Below are positions 10,764 through 19,915 of a stretch of DNA of 64,000 bases, piece after piece. The first letter of the stretch is position 1, and the number at the start of each line of letters is the position of its first letter. Both the position numbers and the translations under genes were made by a program. The stretch is from Planctomycetota bacterium. Its GTDB lineage: Bacteria; Planctomycetota; B15-G4; SIAN01. The notes beneath the pieces were generated by a model that saw nothing but the letters and a program-made list of their open reading frames with translations, ran no database searches and was not told the DNA's origin. The stretch covers positions 434,001 through 498,000 of the forward strand of contig JANQQL010000010.1 in NCBI GenBank assembly GCA_028289345.1, in the 5' to 3' direction.

Positions 10764-12047
10764 TCATCCCGACGTGTCGTCCAGGAAACGCCAGACCGTC
10801 GCAAAGATTCGCTCGAGAATGCGACGGTCCGCAGTCACGATCTCGGCGTCGCCCTGCATCTCCGGTCGGTACGTCAAATCGAGTCCCGTCGAGGTTTGGA
10901 GCCCCTGAGGAAACGCGACCTTCACGCAGTATTCGTCTTCCTGGGCGACCCGGGCGATCTCCTCGACCCGTCCTCGAACGGCTCCAAACTCATGAAATGG
11001 AAACCCGTCGAACTTGACGCGAACCGACTGACCGACGCGCACCTGTCCGGACCCTGGTCGCGGAAGTGCCAAGCGTCCCACGAAGCGCTGCACGGGTCCC
11101 TCGGGGACCACGGTCAAGACTTCTTCGTTCTTCGTGACGAAGTGATGGTCCGCCCATCCTTGGGTGAATGACACTGTTCCTGCCACGGGCGCGCGCAGCG
11201 CGTGCTCATCCAACGCCAACCTCGCCGCCGCAAAGAACCTCTGCGCTGCCAGATTCAGCGAACGCTGCACTCTCTGAAACTCTTGTTCCTGGGTGCGCAG
11301 GAGCTCCACGATCTTTCGTTGCTGCTGATTGCCCTGGATTTCCGCCTGGATCACCCGGGTTCGAGCTGCCTCCAAGGATCTCTTGCTCGCCAGGAACGAC
11401 ATCTCGGCCGTCACGGAGTCCCGTTCGGACGCCAGCTCGTTCTCCTGCAACAACCTCGCCGTCTCGTGGCCACGCTTGGCAAGATCCACTTCTCGCTCCA
11501 GGAGTTCCACGTTGCGCCGCTCTTGGACCATGAGCGCCGAGTACTTTTCGACTTCCTGGCGGCCCAAACGAATGCTCGAGTCGAAGTAGTCGGAGCCGCG
11601 AAAGTCCCGATACTCCTGGTACGCATGAACCAGCTCTGCGAGCTTTGGCTGCAACGTCCCGAGGTGCCATTCCGGGTGTCCGGTCAGGGGCCACGACTCT
11701 TCGGACACACGAGCAAGGACTTCTTCCCAAGCCAGAATGGCAGCCACCACATCCTCGTAACGCCCGCGGCCTTGCACCCACGCCAGGAGTGCCCCGGTGT
11801 CCACCGGATCCCCCTCCTTCACGTGCCAACGCAACGGTCCACTGGCAGGAGCCACGACGCGAACCGGTGGATCCGGAGTCGTCACTTCGATCCGGGCGCC
11901 AATCACCTTCGGATAGCGGACTACCCAAGCTCCCAGGAAAAGGAACGCGACCGCCAGAGCGATCATCGGCCCCCCGAATCGCAGGATCCAAGGAGGCATG
12001 GCCCCAAGGATCTCCTGATAAGCCGCGCTGTTGTTTTCGATCGGCAT
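10764..12047 (-). CDS. HlyD-type membrane fusion protein of a peptide exporter
   Basis: This 427-residue adaptor has a short cytoplasmic N-terminus, one membrane segment (IALAVAFLFLGAWVV) and a lipoyl/barrel half (VVAPASGPLRWHVKEGDPV). A long coiled coil spans about 120-310, and the second barrel half (LRAPVAGTVSF) precedes a C-terminal beta domain. This is the standard order for adaptors that link a type 1 ABC exporter to an outer-membrane channel. The ATG overlaps the stop of the ABC transporter gene (TGATG), implying translational coupling. It is the last gene of the peptide cassette. No TolC-like channel is present in the window, so an unlinked one would be required. Confidence 0.92.
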   Translation of the reverse strand: MPIENNSAAYQEILGAMPPWILRFGGPMIALAVAFLFLGAWVVRYPKVIGARIEVTTPDPPVRVVAPASGPLRWHVKEGDPVDTGALLAWVQGRGRYEDVVAAILAWEEVLARVSEESWPLTGHPEWHLGTLQPKLAELVHAYQEYRDFRGSDYFDSSIRLGRQEVEKYSALMVQERRNVELLEREVDLAKRGHETARLLQENELASERDSVTAEMSFLASKRSLEAARTRVIQAEIQGNQQQRKIVELLRTQEQEFQRVQRSLNLAAQRFFAAARLALDEHALRAPVAGTVSFTQGWADHHFVTKNEEVLTVVPEGPVQRFVGRLALPRPGSGQVRVGQSVRVKFDGFPFHEFGAVRGRVEEIARVAQEDEYCVKVAFPQGLQTSTGLDLTYRPEMQGDAEIVTADRRILERIFATVWRFLDDTSG

Positions 12048-14326
12048 CAGGTTCCCAATTCGAGCTGGTTCTTGATGAGCCGGTAGTAGGACCCACGACT
12101 TCGCGTCAGGCTTTGGTGGTCCCCGCATTCCACCATTCGCCCTTCGTCGAGAACGAGGATCTGATCCGCTTTGCGAACCGTGCTCAAGCGATGGGCAATG
12201 ACAAGAACCGTTCGCCCATCGAAGAAGCGATCCAAATTCTGCATGATGATGCGCTCGTTGTTGGCATCCAGCGCGCTGGTTGCTTCATCGAAGAACACGT
12301 ACTGAGGATCTTTGTAGATGGCACGGGCAATCAAGATCCGCTGGCGCTGTCCCTGACTCAAGCCGGACCCATCGGGACCGACCTTGGTCTCGTAGCCAAG
12401 AGGCATGGCTTCGATCGTGTCGTGAATGTTCGCCATCCGGGCGGCGTGCAACAGCCGCTCCGAGTCAATCTCCTCAGTCCCGAGAGCGATGTTCTGGGCC
12501 ACGGACTCCGTGAACAGGTAGCCATCCTGAAGGACGACTCCGCAACGGGATCGCCACACTTCCGGACTCACATTGGAAAGCCGAAGGGCTCCCAGTCGGA
12601 TCTCCCCACGGGTCGGCGGATGGAACATGAGCAGCAGCTTCAGCAGAGTCGTCTTGCCACTTCCGCTGGGGCCGACGATGGCGGTAACTTTTCCCTCTGG
12701 AATCCTCAGGGACAAGTCGGTCAACACGCTTTCCCGATCTGCGCCTTGATAGCGGAACGACAGATTCTGAATCTCGATGCTCTTGTCGTGGGGCAGGGTT
12801 CGCGCCTGAAGGCGTCCGGTGGATCGTTCCTCGTCGGGGTGCTCGTGAAGCTCTGAGAGCCGTTCGAGACTTATCCTTGCATCCTGATAGGTCTGAGCGA
12901 AGTCCAAGAACTGCAGCAACGGGGCGTTGAGCTGGCCCACGATCTGCTGCAGCGCCATCATCATCCCCAGGCTGAGGTCTCCGTCGATCACCGCCTTGGC
13001 GGAGAGAAAGGTGATCAAGATGTTCTTCAACTCGTTGACCGTCGCCGCCCCCCCCTGCTGCATCTGCCCCACGGCCAGGCCTTTGGCTCGGGTCCGGAAA
13101 CGGCGCGCCTGAATCGCCTCCCACTGCCAACGTTTGCGTCGCTCTGCCTGGTTGAGCTTGATCTCCGGCATCCCGGTCAACAGCTCAATCATGTTGCTTT
13201 GCTCGTCGGCCACTTCGCTGAAACGGGCATTGTCCAAAGCCCGGCGGCGACGCATGAAAATTAGAACCCAGGAGAAAGAAACGGCACTGCCGGCGACAAA
13301 CAACAGGAAGATCGGGATGCTGTAGAAACACAACACGATTCCGTAAACCAAGACGTTGACCAGCGAGAACAAGATGTTGAGCGTCGTCGACGTCAGGAAC
13401 TGCTCAATGCGCGCCTGATCCTGCACTCGCTGCAGGAGATCTCCCAAAATGCGCGATTCGAAGAACGGCATCGGCAATCGCATGAGCTTCGCCAACAGAT
13501 CCGACAGCATCGTCAGGTTGAGGCGAACTCCAATGTGAAGCAGAACCCAACTCCGAATGAACTCCACAGAGGTCTTGCCACAGAACACCATGAGTTGAGC
13601 CAGCAGGATGGTGTAGACAAACCCGATGTTCTCGCCCTGGACTCCGACATCGACGATGGCCTGGGTCAGAAATGGAGCCACCAAGCTCAGCAGCGTTCCG
13701 ACTCCGAGGCCAAGGAGCAGCTGAAACAAGAAAGCCCGGTACTTTCGCAGGTAGGTGAACAAGAAACCCCAGCCCGAACCAGTTTCGTCCGTCGCTTCGC
13801 CGCGGTGAAAGTCCGGGGTGGGTTCCAGGGCGAGCACCAGCCCTTTCGCACCTTCTTCCCGATCGGCCCGCGCCCACGCTTTCAAAAAGGCCTCTCGAGG
13901 TACGGAACTTCTTCGGTGAGCCGGGTCGGCAATCCAGTAGCGACTTCCCCGGATCCGGTACAACACGACGAAGTGGGCTTGTCCCCAGGGAATCACGCAG
14001 GGCAGCGGGACATCCAACAAACGTTCGAAGGGCACCCGCGCTGCGAACGCCCGGAATCCCAAGGATTCGGCGGCTTCGGTCAAGCCCTGGAACGAGGCCC
14101 CGGTTCGATGAATCGACGCACGCTGGCGAACATCTCGCGCGGTGAACGTTCGCCCGTAGTGCGCGGCGATCATGCGCAGACAAGTCGGACCGCAGTCGTG
14201 CTTGTCGAGTTGACGAAAGTGAGGAAACCGACGCCGGCGCCAGAATGACTCCCTCGGCGCCACCTCTTGTTCCTGGGTGGCGCCCGCCTCGCCATTGTGC
14301 TTGCCGTTGTGTGTGGCTCGCTTCAT
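12047..14326 (-). CDS. C39 peptidase-containing ABC exporter (PCAT)
   Basis: The 759-residue protein joins three modules. Residues 34-150 are a C39 cysteine peptidase with the full active site: Gln39 and Cys45 in QLDKHDCGPTCL, His118 in GQAHFVVL, Asp134 in WIADPA. Then come six membrane helices (about 190-470). The C-terminal ATPase has Walker A GPSGSGKTT, signature LSQGQRQR, Walker B YVFFDEATSALD and an H-loop IAHRLS. Such transporters cut precursors after a double-glycine leader and export the mature peptide. The gene lies 18 bases after the VKOR fusion gene and one base into the HlyD start. The substrate is most likely the Cys-rich peptide encoded at 16097-16285. Confidence 0.95.
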   Translation of the reverse strand: MKRATHNGKHNGEAGATQEQEVAPRESFWRRRRFPHFRQLDKHDCGPTCLRMIAAHYGRTFTARDVRQRASIHRTGASFQGLTEAAESLGFRAFAARVPFERLLDVPLPCVIPWGQAHFVVLYRIRGSRYWIADPAHRRSSVPREAFLKAWARADREEGAKGLVLALEPTPDFHRGEATDETGSGWGFLFTYLRKYRAFLFQLLLGLGVGTLLSLVAPFLTQAIVDVGVQGENIGFVYTILLAQLMVFCGKTSVEFIRSWVLLHIGVRLNLTMLSDLLAKLMRLPMPFFESRILGDLLQRVQDQARIEQFLTSTTLNILFSLVNVLVYGIVLCFYSIPIFLLFVAGSAVSFSWVLIFMRRRRALDNARFSEVADEQSNMIELLTGMPEIKLNQAERRKRWQWEAIQARRFRTRAKGLAVGQMQQGGAATVNELKNILITFLSAKAVIDGDLSLGMMMALQQIVGQLNAPLLQFLDFAQTYQDARISLERLSELHEHPDEERSTGRLQARTLPHDKSIEIQNLSFRYQGADRESVLTDLSLRIPEGKVTAIVGPSGSGKTTLLKLLLMFHPPTRGEIRLGALRLSNVSPEVWRSRCGVVLQDGYLFTESVAQNIALGTEEIDSERLLHAARMANIHDTIEAMPLGYETKVGPDGSGLSQGQRQRILIARAIYKDPQYVFFDEATSALDANNERIIMQNLDRFFDGRTVLVIAHRLSTVRKADQILVLDEGRMVECGDHQSLTRSRGSYYRLIKNQLELGT

Positions 14327-14344
14327 GCCGTGGCGTTGGGGTGA

Positions 14345-16009
14345 TCAGCGAACCCCGACCGGCTTGCGTGGCGCCGATCGCAGCAAGTGCTCCAGATCCT
14401 GGAGTCGTAAAGAGCGAGGCAATCGACGATCGTTGACAAAGATCGTCGGCGTGCCCTGAACTCCGACGCACTGCGCCCAGCTTTGGGTTTTGCGAAGGGT
14501 CTCCCGTGCCTTCTCGAGAGACCCGTCGCAATCCCGAAGTGGGAAGGCGATCAGCAGCGACGAAACCGTCGCTGGCTTTTCTTGATACCAACGGTGCAGA
14601 AGAGTAAGGGCGTCCTTGGATCGCCCCTCGACGCCGAGGGCCAAGACGTGAAGCGCCAGGAGTCCCGGGTCCCCACTCTCTTCGGATCCAAGGATTCGGA
14701 ACGTGACTCGAACCTGGTGGGGATAGCGGGAAACGAGACGCTGGGCAACTTCATGGGCTTCCGCACAGTACTGGCAGACGGGACTGGTGACCAAGGTCAG
14801 CGAAAACGGGGCGTTGGTCACTCCCAAGGTCAAGTCTCCCGAGAGAGCGGGGATGACCACGGCCGACTCCTTCTCGAACAGCTGGGCCATGACGCCAGGG
14901 TCGCGGATCAGGCGAAGGAACCGGTAGCGCCACTCTTCCGCCTGACTGGCCTGCGCTTGCCACGGGCGAACCAGGACCCAGAGGAATCCAGGCAAACCAA
15001 ATCCTACGGCCATCAGGCCGACCCCCGCGCCATTCCACATTGCGAAGTTCGTGTCCTGAAGGAGCAGCCAGAGGAGCAGCTCAATCACGAACAAGGCCTG
15101 CACTGCAAGGCACAGAGGACACCACTGCCTGACCACTCGTGCCTGATAAAACACCGAGAAACAAACGTAGGGAAGAGTCGCCAACGACATCCCTCGCAGG
15201 CAACCGAGAGCCGTCACTCCTGCGGCCGCGGTCAGCCCCATCGTCACCATGCCTCCAAGGAAGTACAGCACTCCCAAGTCGGCCATGGGAACCACGCCGA
15301 ACAACTTGGAAGCCGGCGAGTTCAACACCGAGAGGCAATCCGACCGGGAACCCACTCGACACAGTTTCTGCATCCACGACGACCCGCGACCGCTGCTTTC
15401 CAACACCAGAAGGCCGCTGACGAGGATTCCCATCACCTTCACACTGAGCAGTGCCAACAACCCGGGAGATTGCCTGTACGCCAAGCACAAGAAACCCAGC
15501 CACACGGACAGGAGGGCGATTCCTCCGACCCAAAGCCCACCGGCTCGCAGGGACTCCCAGCGCTCCTTCCTTTGGTCGTCTGGATTGGGAACCACCGGCG
15601 TCTCGGGAGTGGGAGCCACAGCCAGAATGCGGCCCGACCAGCGATGGGCAAAGTCGGTCCTCGGCACCGTGGACCAACCGGACGCCGGATCGAGGAGGGT
15701 CACCTGATCGGATGCTAGCTCGTTGACAATGACGAAGCGGCCCCCGTCTTCGTGCAAGTGCGCGAGACACGGAAGAGGGATTTGGTCGAGCTGCTCCTGG
15801 GCAACTCGAAAGGCTTCCGATTCCATGCCGAAGCTCGCCAGGCTGTCGCGCGCACTCAACAAGCTCGGGAACTCGGGATGACCGCGGAGTGCATCCTGCA
15901 CGCTTCGCCGCGGCACCGAGATGTCCATCTGCCGAAGCAGATTTTGCATCGCCGTCGGTAGGTTGTCGGAATCGTCCTTCTGCTTGGACCAGACTCGTGC
16001 AGCTTTCAT
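14345..16009 (-). CDS. VKOR-thioredoxin fusion with N-terminal degenerate C39-like domain
   Basis: The 554-residue membrane protein has three parts. Residues 1-135 resemble a C39 peptidase, but the catalytic Cys position is Asn16 and the His position is Arg91; only Asp107 (TLLDPASG) remains. Residues 157-350 are a vitamin K epoxide reductase domain with several membrane helices, loop cysteines 217 and 225, and the redox centre CPLC (297-300). Residues 390-550 are a thioredoxin/DsbA-like domain with CQYC (412-415) and a cis-Pro (GTPTIF). VKOR fusions form disulfides, passing electrons to quinone. The ATG at 16009 has GGGGGTGG upstream; a GTG at 16039 is less likely. Inference: the protein binds the leader and oxidises the Cys-rich core. 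Confidence 0.9.
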   Translation of the reverse strand: MKAARVWSKQKDDSDNLPTAMQNLLRQMDISVPRRSVQDALRGHPEFPSLLSARDSLASFGMESEAFRVAQEQLDQIPLPCLAHLHEDGGRFVIVNELASDQVTLLDPASGWSTVPRTDFAHRWSGRILAVAPTPETPVVPNPDDQRKERWESLRAGGLWVGGIALLSVWLGFLCLAYRQSPGLLALLSVKVMGILVSGLLVLESSGRGSSWMQKLCRVGSRSDCLSVLNSPASKLFGVVPMADLGVLYFLGGMVTMGLTAAAGVTALGCLRGMSLATLPYVCFSVFYQARVVRQWCPLCLAVQALFVIELLLWLLLQDTNFAMWNGAGVGLMAVGFGLPGFLWVLVRPWQAQASQAEEWRYRFLRLIRDPGVMAQLFEKESAVVIPALSGDLTLGVTNAPFSLTLVTSPVCQYCAEAHEVAQRLVSRYPHQVRVTFRILGSEESGDPGLLALHVLALGVEGRSKDALTLLHRWYQEKPATVSSLLIAFPLRDCDGSLEKARETLRKTQSWAQCVGVQGTPTIFVNDRRLPRSLRLQDLEHLLRSAPRKPVGVR

Positions 16010-16096
16010 CGGCCACCCCCTCTCCACGCAATGGGTCACAGCGGAGCTTCGATCGCGAAGCCCCGCCGTGGATCGAACCTTGTCTGTGAGGGTGGG

Positions 16097-16285
16097 CTAG
16101 TGGCAGCAACACTCCACGTCGCCGGTTTGGATGTTCCGGCAACACCCGCCGCACGGGGTCTTCCAGCAGAAACCCCAGAAGTCGAAACCGTCACAGCCGC
16201 CACCACCGCGCACGGCCTTCATTTCGGTTTCGTCCAGCGGCTCGACAGCGCTCAGCTCGCGAAGATCAGCCAATGACTTACGCAT
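16097..16285 (-). CDS. Double-glycine-leader, cysteine-rich precursor peptide
   Basis: This 62-codon gene starts at an ATG with AAGGA eight bases upstream. Residues 1-28 form a leader ending LDETEMKAVRGG, which fits the double-glycine rule exactly (Leu-12, Glu-8, Met-7, Val-4, Gly-2, Gly-1). Cleavage after Gly28 would release 34 residues starting GGCDGF. The core carries eight cysteines (residues 31, 40, 45, 48, 49, 59, 60, 61) and ends CCCH, enough for four disulfides. Three aromatic residues and two Trp lie in the first half. The next three genes encode a disulfide-forming VKOR fusion, a C39 exporter and its adaptor, so this is the evident cargo. No modification enzyme for lanthionine or thiazole chemistry is nearby. 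Activity (antimicrobial, signal or metal-binding) is unknown. Confidence 0.85.
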   Translation of the reverse strand: MRKSLADLRELSAVEPLDETEMKAVRGGGGCDGFDFWGFCWKTPCGGCCRNIQTGDVECCCH

Positions 16286-16430
16286 GCTCTCGTCCTTTCA
16301 TCAATCGAATGGCGTGGCGGTTCTTGTCCTCCGTTCGGGAGGTCGCTCGATCCCCGCCCGCACCCTTCCATTCGAAAAAGAGCGGACTGACAGCTCATGG
16401 TTTTTGACAAACGTCCAACTTGTGCTCGCG

Positions 16431-16524: not shown

Positions 16525-17061
16525 ATGCGGGACAAACAGTTCTCGGTTTCCACCCCCCGACTTTGGGCCGAGGTCTATCTCGAGCTCCACGCGTTGGCGA
16601 CTCAACTGCTCCGCCATCACCAGCGGACCAGTCCCCTCCACGCCACGTCCCTGCTTCACGAAACGTACTTGCGGCTGGCGAGAAATGGGCGGGGTTACGA
16701 CAACCGTGCTCATTTCCTGTCCACGGCCGCCCGGGCGATGCGTTACGTTCTCGTCGATCAAGCGCGCCATCGGCAAGCCCTCAAGAGACTCCCCGTTCCC
16801 CTCGAAAGCTCCACGGACCCGCAGGCGATGCCTGATTCAAATCTGGCGTTGCTGACCGTCCACGAGTTGCTCCATGAGCTCTCGGATCTGGATCCTCGCA
16901 AAGCCCAAGTCGTCGAACTTCGCTTCTTCGGCGGGTTGGATGTGGAAGAGGTCGCAGGAGTTCTCGGCTGCTCTCAAGCGACGGTCAAACGAGACTGGAC
17001 CTTCTCGCGCGCCTGGCTGCGTCGGCGACTCCGATCTCCCACGAGCCCCGGTCATGGGTAA
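16525..17061 (+). CDS. ECF sigma factor (Planctomycetes/Acidobacteria type), pair 1
   Basis: The 178-residue protein has sigma region 2 (LRHHQRTSPLHATSLLHETY, then RAHFLSTAARAMRYVLVDQA) and region 4 (VVELRFFGGLDVEEVAGVL, with the recognition helix CSQATVKRDW). This pattern, with ARAMRxxLVDxAR between the regions, is the ECF group common in planctomycetes. It would direct RNA polymerase to a small regulon. Its last eight bases overlap the start of the following kinase gene, so the two are translated together. It diverges from the peptide cassette. A shadow frame (16453-16776, minus) is ignored. Confidence 0.9.
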   Translation: MRDKQFSVSTPRLWAEVYLELHALATQLLRHHQRTSPLHATSLLHETYLRLARNGRGYDNRAHFLSTAARAMRYVLVDQARHRQALKRLPVPLESSTDPQAMPDSNLALLTVHELLHELSDLDPRKAQVVELRFFGGLDVEEVAGVLGCSQATVKRDWTFSRAWLRRRLRSPTSPGHG

Positions 17062-19915
17062 GTCCGACTGGCACCAGGCCGAAGAACTGTTCCATCAACT
17101 CCGGGAGATGGCGGAGCTCGATCGTGACACGGCTCTCGAAGCCACGGCCCGAAAAGACCCGGACCTTGCTCAGCAGGTACGACTCCTTCTTGTCGAGCAC
17201 GATCAGGGACAGGAGTTTCTGAGTCGACCGGCGTTCGAGGAACTCCCCCACTCCCGTTGGACACTGCCGGAGAACTGGAACTCGAGCCCCCCGCACTTTG
17301 GCCCCTACCGACTGACTCGACTCATCGGCAGCGGAGGCATGGGCGTGGTCTACGAAGCAACCCACGAAGAAACCGAGGAGCGCGTTGCCCTGAAGGCCCT
17401 TCGCAGCGGGTTGCTGGCCGACGATCGCCAGCGCCAGCTGTTCCAGCGGGAGGTGCGCTGCTTGAGCCTCCTCCAGCACCCGGGCATTCCTCGCATGCTC
17501 GACTCCGGGGAAAGTGCCGAGGGACTCACCTACTTCGTGATGGAGTTCGTCCGCGGTCGCCCTCTCGACGAGTTCGTGCGCGACCAGGGACTCTCGCGTC
17601 GTGAGCGACTTCAGCTGTTCTCCAAGCTCTGCGACATCATCCGCTACGCCCATGGAAAAGGCGTGTTGCACCGCGACCTCAAGCCCGCCAACGTTCTGGT
17701 CACGTCCAGTCAGCACTCGGAGAACGCTCCGGAACTGAAGGTCCTGGACTTCGGCTTGGCACGACGAGCGAGTGAATCGGCTCCCCATACCTCGCGACTG
17801 ACCAAGACGGGACAAGTGTTCGGCACCTTGTCCGCCATGAGCCCCGAGCAAGCGCGAGGTGACTCGAAGTCCATCGGCCCCGCGACCGATGTCTACTCAT
17901 TGGGAGTCATCCTCTACGGATTGATTACCGACCGCGAGCCCTACGACCTCACCCCCCTCCCCCTGCCGCGCGCTCTCGAAGTCGTTTGCGAGCTCGAACC
18001 TCCTCGCCCCAGCCTTCACGACCCACTCCTTCGCGGTGATCTGGATGTGCTCACCCTGAAAGCGCTGGAGAAAGACCCGGCCCATCGCTTCCCCTCGGTC
18101 GCCGAACTCCAGGCGGAAGTGGATCGGTTCTTGAGTGGAGAGCCGATCCGCACCCGTCCACCCAGTCGCCGTCGGCTGCTTCGGCAAGCCATTGTCCGTC
18201 ATCGACTGATAGCCGGATTCACGATCGCGACTCTGGTTCTTTGCACGGTGGCCTCAGGCTGGCTCTGGGTTCTTTACTCCCGTGCGCAACGGGCGGAAGC
18301 AGCCGCACGAGTCGACGCTCACAGCGCCCGCCAAGTGGCTCGCATCCTGGAAGACCTGATCTCCTCCGCCGATCCGACTCAGTCCGAGGGCCCTGATCTG
18401 TTGGTCCGCGACGTTCTTGAAGAAGCAGAAACCTGGCTCCCCGCGGAAGCGGAAGACCAACCAGAAGTCGAAGCTGCACTACGCCTGGTCATGGGACGCG
18501 CCTACACCAACCTTCGCCTGTTCGACAAAGCAGAGTTTCAAACACGCATTGGCATCGACTGCTTGCAACGGGCAGGTGGCAACAACCGACGCCTGGGCTC
18601 CGCCAAGATCCTCTTGGGAGAGATCCTCCTTCATCGTCAACAAGTCTCCGAAGCGCGCCAGATCGTTCAAGAGGTCCTCCGTTCTCCCGAACTCTCGCCA
18701 CTCAATGAGCACAACCACGCGCGAGCCGTGCGGACCATGGGTTCCATTCACGAGGAATCCGGGGAACTCGAGGCTGCCGAGGCCAAATATCGAACAGCTC
18801 TGGAGTGGTATCGCGCCCACCGCCACCGACTGATCGGCGAATTCGTGGAGATGCTTGGCACGCTCGCCGGGTTGCGCGAGCGACGCGGAGACTTCCGGGA
18901 GGCAGCGACCTTGCTGCAAGAAGCGATGGACGCCGTGAGCCAGAGTGAAACAAAGAACTCTCTCTATGTGGCATCCATTCGGCGCCGGGTGGCACTACTG
19001 CGCCACCGCTTGGGCCAGCACACCGAAGCTGAATCACTCATCCGCCGCATTCTTGCCACCGACGAAGCACGCCTCGGCCCGCGTCACGCTCAGACGCTGA
19101 TGGACCGCGACCTGCTCGCCGCAATCCTCCGCGGTCAACAGAAACACCGGGAAGCGACGGCCATTCTTCGGGAAGTGCTTCAGGCCTACGAAGAAACCAA
19201 CCCCCAAAGCTCCCTTCGATTCGAATCTCAGACCAACCTCGCCGTCATCCTGTTCGAGACCGGTCGACTCGCCGAGGCGGAGGCTCTGCTCCACGAGATC
19301 CTGGCACATCGGCTCGCCCACAATGGCGAAGGACACCTGCGGACACGAACAACCTGGATGCTGCTGGGCGAAGTTCAGCTCCGCCAACACCGCCCCGCCG
19401 ACGCCGTCGACTCGCACCTTCGCGCGATCGAGATTAACGACCAACTCTTCGGAGAAGATCACTTCGAAGGCGGAATGATGCACGCCAGCCTCGCTCACGC
19501 CTACTATCTTTTGGAAGACTTCGTCCTGGCAGAGGATCACGCAGACGAGAGCTGGCGCCGGCTCAAAGACTCCGTTCCCGAGACGCATCCGCACGCGGTG
19601 ACGTGTCTCAACCTCCTGGCTCAACTCTCATTGGAAGACCACCGGTTCGACGATGCCGTCGACTACTACCGAGAACTCCTGCGACGCATCGAAGCGTCCC
19701 CGGAGATCCCGAGCGGCCGGATTCATGAAATGCGCCTCAAACTCGCGGACGCCTTGATTCGCGGCGATCGGTGGAGCGAAGCCGATGAGATCCTCGGCAA
19801 GAGCGAAGCATGGCTTCAACAAAACCACCCCGCGCATCACCCGTCCGTCCGCTTGGCGACTGAGCTTCGTCAGTCGATCACGCATACCGTCGCAAACTTG
19901 AACACACGGGAATAG
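17054..19915 (+). CDS. Membrane Ser/Thr protein kinase with C-terminal TPR sensor, pair 1
   Basis: The 953-residue kinase has a Gly loop (IGSGGMGVVYEA), catalytic Lys (VALKAL), HRD motif VLHRDLKPANVL, DFG motif LDFGLARR and activation segment MSPEQARG. A short N-terminal region of about 80 residues (EELFHQLREMAEL) precedes it and is shared with kinase 2. One membrane segment follows (FTIATLVLCTVASGWLWVLY). The remaining 570 residues are tetratricopeptide repeats, with recurring A-x-x-L-x-x-x-L-A pairs. The kinase domain is cytoplasmic and the TPRs probably face the periplasm. The start overlaps the sigma factor stop by eight bases, so it probably controls that sigma factor by phosphorylation, as inferred for similar pairs. 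Confidence 0.93.
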   Translation: MGKSDWHQAEELFHQLREMAELDRDTALEATARKDPDLAQQVRLLLVEHDQGQEFLSRPAFEELPHSRWTLPENWNSSPPHFGPYRLTRLIGSGGMGVVYEATHEETEERVALKALRSGLLADDRQRQLFQREVRCLSLLQHPGIPRMLDSGESAEGLTYFVMEFVRGRPLDEFVRDQGLSRRERLQLFSKLCDIIRYAHGKGVLHRDLKPANVLVTSSQHSENAPELKVLDFGLARRASESAPHTSRLTKTGQVFGTLSAMSPEQARGDSKSIGPATDVYSLGVILYGLITDREPYDLTPLPLPRALEVVCELEPPRPSLHDPLLRGDLDVLTLKALEKDPAHRFPSVAELQAEVDRFLSGEPIRTRPPSRRRLLRQAIVRHRLIAGFTIATLVLCTVASGWLWVLYSRAQRAEAAARVDAHSARQVARILEDLISSADPTQSEGPDLLVRDVLEEAETWLPAEAEDQPEVEAALRLVMGRAYTNLRLFDKAEFQTRIGIDCLQRAGGNNRRLGSAKILLGEILLHRQQVSEARQIVQEVLRSPELSPLNEHNHARAVRTMGSIHEESGELEAAEAKYRTALEWYRAHRHRLIGEFVEMLGTLAGLRERRGDFREAATLLQEAMDAVSQSETKNSLYVASIRRRVALLRHRLGQHTEAESLIRRILATDEARLGPRHAQTLMDRDLLAAILRGQQKHREATAILREVLQAYEETNPQSSLRFESQTNLAVILFETGRLAEAEALLHEILAHRLAHNGEGHLRTRTTWMLLGEVQLRQHRPADAVDSHLRAIEINDQLFGEDHFEGGMMHASLAHAYYLLEDFVLAEDHADESWRRLKDSVPETHPHAVTCLNLLAQLSLEDHRFDDAVDYYRELLRRIEASPEIPSGRIHEMRLKLADALIRGDRWSEADEILGKSEAWLQQNHPAHHPSVRLATELRQSITHTVANLNTRE

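Follow-up and report, generated by a model that had tools for sequence, protein, structure and literature searches.

The 64,000-nucleotide stretch of planctomycete DNA analysed here (hereafter the window) carries a cassette of four minus-strand genes, encoding a precursor peptide with a double-glycine leader, a membrane oxidase, a C39 peptidase-containing ABC exporter and an HlyD-family adaptor, and this cassette is likely to be an operon for the maturation and export of a disulfide-bonded peptide. The oxidase joins in one protein, and in this order, an N-terminal Peptidase_C39 domain (135 residues), a VKOR domain and a thioredoxin domain. A preliminary description of the window had correctly recognised the VKOR and thioredoxin parts; it missed the degenerate C39 domain and an extra membrane helix, and the likely mechanism changes as a result. 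The four genes, the leader residues and the core of 34 residues with eight cysteines that it listed are all present in the sequence.

The oxidase and its inactive C39 domain

The catalytic cysteine of the C39 domain was found in none of the fusion proteins (0/45) and in every alignable exporter C39 domain (34/34), while all four VKOR active-site cysteines and those of the thioredoxin site were invariant in 28 homologues. In an AlphaFold model of the oxidase the C39-like domain is structurally similar to C39 proteases, including the LahT-leader complex 6mpz (TM-score 0.82-0.83, 2.2-2.4 Å). The groove of the LahT protease holds leader positions -4, -7 and -12 (V-4, L-7 and L-12; PMC6363468), and at these positions the window leader has V, M and L. 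The amphipathic leader of the precursor would be bound both by the exporter's active C39 domain and by its degenerate relative in the oxidase, which would hold the leader without being able to cut it.

The window exporter has the architecture of the PCAT/AMS exporters (LahT, PCAT1) and an active C39 domain, its catalytic residues being complete as first described. The N-terminal domain of the oxidase has the same fold but lacks the cysteine and histidine, and it has no ABC part. With the classical VKOR-thioredoxin oxidases (Synechococcus type; PDB 3kp9 and 4nv6) the fusion shares the four VKOR cysteines and the thioredoxin CxxC; unlike them it has the N-terminal C39-like domain, an additional membrane helix and a reversed charge bias. 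No description of a C39/VKOR/thioredoxin fusion was found in the literature searched, which missed most subscription papers, and the system formed by such a protein and a cysteine-containing double-glycine peptide is widespread in Bacteroidota, is little described and has no formal name in those papers. The window cassette fits it, with intact VKOR and thioredoxin cysteines, an inactive C39 domain, an adjoining double-glycine peptide with at least four cysteines, and the Bacteroidota-type C39 exporter and HlyD protein of the system.

Cargo peptides at fusion loci

We compared 48 fusion loci with 24 C39-exporter loci that have no fusion, recording double-glycine-leader peptides with at least four cysteines and their strand. 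Such peptides lay on the same strand at 35/48 fusion loci and 0/24 control loci (Fisher 5e-10), the first count being a lower bound as the pattern missed at least L043, L061 and L064, which were added by eye. They lay on the opposite strand at 3/48 fusion loci, and when the controls were limited to Bacteroidota-type exporters 0/13 had cysteine cargo (1.6e-6). The possibility raised in the preliminary description that the exporter and oxidase go with different cargo lacking cysteines is not borne out: cysteine cargo goes with the fusion loci and is lacking where a C39 exporter stands without the fusion.

The number of cysteines in the cargo was even in 48/53 peptides (p 7e-10), six being commonest, and in 30/34 when one peptide was taken per locus. 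TlpA-like WCxxC oxidoreductases were present at 24/48 fusion loci, compared with 0/24 controls. At two Chitinophaga loci the cargo core is an LDL-receptor class A (LDLa) module (PF00057, above cut-off), an animal-type module on a double-glycine leader (L044:8736-9527 and L064:8678-9506); LDLa domains need three disulfides, and here a bacterial C39 system appears to carry such a module out of the cell. In the planctomycete genome G005 the cargo beside the fusion has four core cysteines and an unrelated leader, Nif11 (TIGR03798, 46 bits), the leader type of a known class of precursors of ribosomally synthesised and post-translationally modified peptides (RiPPs). This leader is long compared with those of the window type, and no maturase except the fusion stands beside the cargo. 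Taken together, the cargo association, the even cysteine numbers, the TlpA-like partners, the LDLa modules and the G005 cargo argue that exported peptides receive their disulfides from the fusion, an assignment with strong genomic support. The original proposal of C39 processing and export of a cysteine-rich core with a dedicated oxidase draws support from this association and from the gene content.

The leader of the window precursor is MRKSLADLRELSAVEPLDETEMKAVRGG, and cleavage would fall at some point within the GGGG. A leader profile built solely from Bacteroidota and Oxalobacteraceae cargo, run on the 8.4-Mb genome to which the window belongs, gave a single match at E<=10, the window precursor (13.7 bits, E 1.15), and none of 1000 shuffled leaders scored as high as the real one (0/1000). 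Other weak matches to the precursor in this genome were set aside, L002 on reading because it sits in an unrelated open reading frame and L003 to L006 as chance by their scores. The precursor belongs to no Pfam family and its core has no convincing relative in the PDB, homology to solved structures being rejected as the matches were chance hits to antibodies. It can be seen from the loci compared that the core sequence is not conserved, the conserved parts being the leader and the export and oxidation machinery only.

The leader is of the type found in the TIGR04149 double-glycine RiPP precursors of Bacteroidota (L-12, S-11, E-8, M-7, K-6, V/I-4, GG), although the precursor, at 18.2 bits, is under the curated cut-off of 25. 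The name of that family presumes radical-SAM modification and, along with the eight cysteines of the 34-residue core, CC and CCC runs among them, and the LanC-like or radical-SAM genes at some Bacteroidota fusion loci, it could indicate that the core cysteines bind metal or form thioether links, as in lanthipeptides or sactipeptides, rather than disulfides. We regard this as improbable, as none of the four genes encodes such an enzyme, a radical-SAM protein included, and radical-SAM-like open reading frames occur at only 4 fusion loci. Moreover, the enzyme that always accompanies the cargo is a thiol oxidase, and the bias to even cysteine numbers and the LDLa cargo point to disulfides.

LanC-like proteins lie beside the fusion at L053:10960-12030 and at seven other Bacteroidota loci, with radical-SAM or glycosyltransferase genes present as well at some Bacteroidales loci, which suggests further modifications. 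Several distinct cysteine precursors with near-identical leaders lie in tandem beside one fusion gene at L031:6013-12604 (Hydrotalea), L056 and L058, and resemble a diversified cargo family.

A second cassette in the same genome (L017) has the cysteine precursor MKKLTLDELRALPGTTELSQNEMTSFRGA/SGSCEDMCEEERQGCLSCGGRPHQCDNIYNICIQYNC directly upstream of its oxidase gene, which encodes the fusion, and an exporter. The exporter is followed by a short N-terminal HlyD stub only (L017:6500-6850, minus strand), and the adaptor may have been lost or be shared with the window cassette. A third VKOR of this genome (L020) has no C39 domain and is probably a general oxidase. In G005 a stand-alone C39 peptidase with the catalytic cysteine and histidine present (L019:2812-3841, minus strand) lies just downstream of the leader-like peptide LSDLEMDELRGN, the cysteines of which cluster near its C-terminus.

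Membrane side of the oxidase

Across the 28 aligned fusions hydropathy indicated six hydrophobic helices, of which the third is less pronounced in four proteins; classical VKOR-thioredoxin proteins have one helix fewer, the extra one of the fusions being N-terminal. An even number of helices would put the thioredoxin domain and the VKOR site on the same side of the membrane as the C39-like domain. In the fusions the active-site side had a lysine and arginine density of 0.18 and the opposite side one of 0.035; in 11 classical planctomycete VKORs the corresponding values were 0.08 and 0.18. The two groups separated completely (U = 0), the p-values being indicative only since the 28 homologues are related and independence is overstated. 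This predicted topology departs from that of a classical periplasm-facing VKOR (N-terminus in, five transmembrane helices, positive loops opposite the active site). The reversed charge bias, along with a 140-residue N-terminal domain that has no signal peptide and would be hard to translocate, favours a cytoplasmic active site, and on balance we lean towards oxidation at the cytoplasmic face, before the leader is removed.

The complete scheme, which we offer tentatively, is an inverted, cytoplasm-facing VKOR in which the inactive C39 domain would hold the leader and the VKOR-thioredoxin part would oxidise the core before the exporter cuts and exports it. In the reading of the cassette as a maturation and export operon, electrons would pass from the core cysteines to CQYC of the thioredoxin, then to the C217/C225 pair, to C297PLC300 and finally to quinone, and the core would gain up to four disulfides. 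The exporter would cleave after the double glycine, and the core would be secreted with the help of HlyD and of an outer-membrane channel whose gene lies outside the cassette; the genome does encode outer-membrane factors. Leader-guided disulfide formation in the cytoplasm prior to export is the new part of this reading. An inverted VKOR has reportedly been described from Aeropyrum pernix.

A possible but more doubtful explanation is that the same system has the classical topology, the peptide being cut, exported in reduced form and then oxidised in the periplasm by the VKOR-thioredoxin part, with a periplasmic C39-like domain acting as a chaperone or exporter contact. This would agree with the periplasmic action of the well-characterised bacterial VKOR-thioredoxin proteins and with the signal-like N-termini of the TlpA-like neighbours in Bacteroidota, which suggest that some disulfide handling is periplasmic. 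However, an N-terminal domain of about 140 residues without a signal peptide would need to be translocated, nearly all of the positive charges would fall outside, and a leader-binding domain in the periplasm would rarely meet a leader that is cut on the cytoplasmic side.

Several points weigh against cytoplasmic oxidation and the reading of the cassette given here. The VKORs and DsbA-like domains that have been characterised usually face the periplasm, and the signal-like N-termini of the TlpA-like partners in Bacteroidota point to some periplasmic disulfide handling; the topology comes from hydropathy and charge counts, and the loops on the opposite side are short; and if oxidation precedes export, the exporter must pass a folded peptide. 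In addition, the cargo of the second cassette has seven cysteines, an odd number, the window leader matches the independent profile only weakly (13.7 bits) and the window core is unique.

Gene layout, distribution and related systems

The features of the cassette are listed in Table 1. The genes are separated by gaps of 87 and 18 bp followed by an overlap of exporter and HlyD, the HlyD ATG overlapping the exporter TGA. The genes bordering the cassette on both sides are on the plus strand, which makes the cassette self-contained; given the close spacing, it is likely to be one complete minus-strand operon. Pfam matches across it are to C39, VKOR, Thioredoxin_4, ABC and HlyD_3, and NCBIfam also backs the family calls. 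The oxidase probably starts at the ATG at 16009, within a reading frame that opens with GTG at 16039. No lanthionine synthetase was found among the cassette or neighbouring proteins scanned.

Table 1. Cassette features, numbered from the first nucleotide of the window.
Feature	Position	Strand	Evidence
Precursor gene, 62 residues, double-glycine leader and eight-cysteine core	16097..16285	-	Sequence; leader shuffle test; genome-wide leader profile; weak TIGR04149
Leader, 28 codons, L-12 E-8 M-7 V-4 G-2 G-1	16202..16285	-	Sequence
Core, 34 residues GGCDGFDFWGFCWKTPCGGCCRNIQTGDVECCCH, eight cysteines	16100..16201	-	Sequence
Shine-Dalgarno-like AAAGGACGAGAGC upstream of precursor ATG (AAAGGACGAGAG)	16286..16298	-	Sequence
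Degenerate-C39/VKOR/thioredoxin membrane oxidase, 554 residues	14345..16009	-	Pfam; alignment; AlphaFold pLDDT 87.6
C39-like domain, residues 7-135, without the catalytic Cys and His	15605..15991	-	PF03412 1.4e-15; residue comparison; TM-score 0.82-0.83 to 6mpz
VKOR domain, residues 186-312, C217, C225, S231, C297PLC300	15074..15454	-	PF07884 1.8e-13
DsbA-like thioredoxin domain, residues 391-543, C412QYC415, cis-Pro motif T520P521	14381..14839	-	PF13462 6.9e-10; invariant in alignment
ABC exporter with C39 peptidase domain, catalytic Q, C, H and D intact	12047..14326	-	Pfam; residue comparison; Bacteroidota-type clade
HlyD-family periplasmic adaptor, 427 residues	10764..12047	-	PF13437; TIGR01843

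An extracytoplasmic function (ECF) sigma factor gene, followed by a Ser/Thr kinase gene with tetratricopeptide repeats, adjoins both cassettes of this genome (window 16525-19915, plus strand; L017:3366-6528, minus strand), and the two sigma factors are of different Pfam families. Regulation by the neighbouring sigma factor was rejected as an explanation, adjacency being weak evidence in a genome with about 95 PF07638 matches.

Among a sample of 294 planctomycete genomes the full-length fusion was found in 2, the present one (two copies) and G005, and none of the other 13 genomes in the order has it. When 84,980 species genomes were scanned, about 50 fusion loci came up, almost all in Bacteroidota, with one in Oxalobacteraceae. 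The preliminary description was thus sound on the chemistry and too narrow in taxonomic scope, as well as missing the most interesting feature: a planctomycete-specific system is rejected, the fusion being overwhelmingly of Bacteroidota and rare in Planctomycetota. In the oxidase tree the two copies from this genome are each other's closest relatives (100/98), the pair grouping with Agaribacillus, a Bacteroidota species (98/94), and the window exporter is nested in a Bacteroidota-type clade (100/100). A recent transfer visible as a shift in GC content was rejected, as GC is 58-63% throughout. One locus (G334) has the same type of exporter and HlyD, yet no fusion, and no cysteine peptide was seen there. 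VKOR-only relatives with the extra first helix and without C39 or thioredoxin occur in Culturomica (L068:4994-5710) and Odoribacter (L069:6836-7528), where no peptide cluster is visible around them.

Of the characterised systems, the bacteroidetocins (class IIf bacteriocins of Bacteroidales) come closest; they likewise combine a double-glycine cysteine peptide, a C39-ABC exporter, a membrane protein and a thiol oxidoreductase. Deletion of the genes for their five-transmembrane-helix protein and thiol oxidoreductase lowers activity, their disulfides were inferred from a gel shift, and they have no evident immunity gene (PMC6671954); none is evident at the window cassette either. That a bacteroidetocin-type locus has been transferred into the planctomycete nevertheless seems very improbable. 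The bacteroidetocin leader has 15-16 residues and the core about 42 with four cysteines, compared with 28 residues, and 34 with eight cysteines, in the window. Their oxidoreductase and five-helix protein are encoded by separate genes, in a four-gene region without HlyD (PMC6671954), whereas the window has HlyD, a single three-domain fusion oxidase and no established sequence resemblance. We conclude that the window cassette is not a bacteroidetocin locus. Its product is probably, at a guess, a secreted antagonistic or signalling peptide.

The association described here links many poorly annotated cysteine-rich double-glycine peptides of Bacteroidota, gut species included, to one maturation enzyme, the gene for which is a simple marker for finding more of them. 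If oxidation is indeed cytoplasmic, this would be a natural leader-guided route to disulfide-rich peptides inside a bacterium, which would be unexpected and useful for production, and disulfides would be a leader-directed intracellular RiPP modification in many Bacteroidota and some Planctomycetota.

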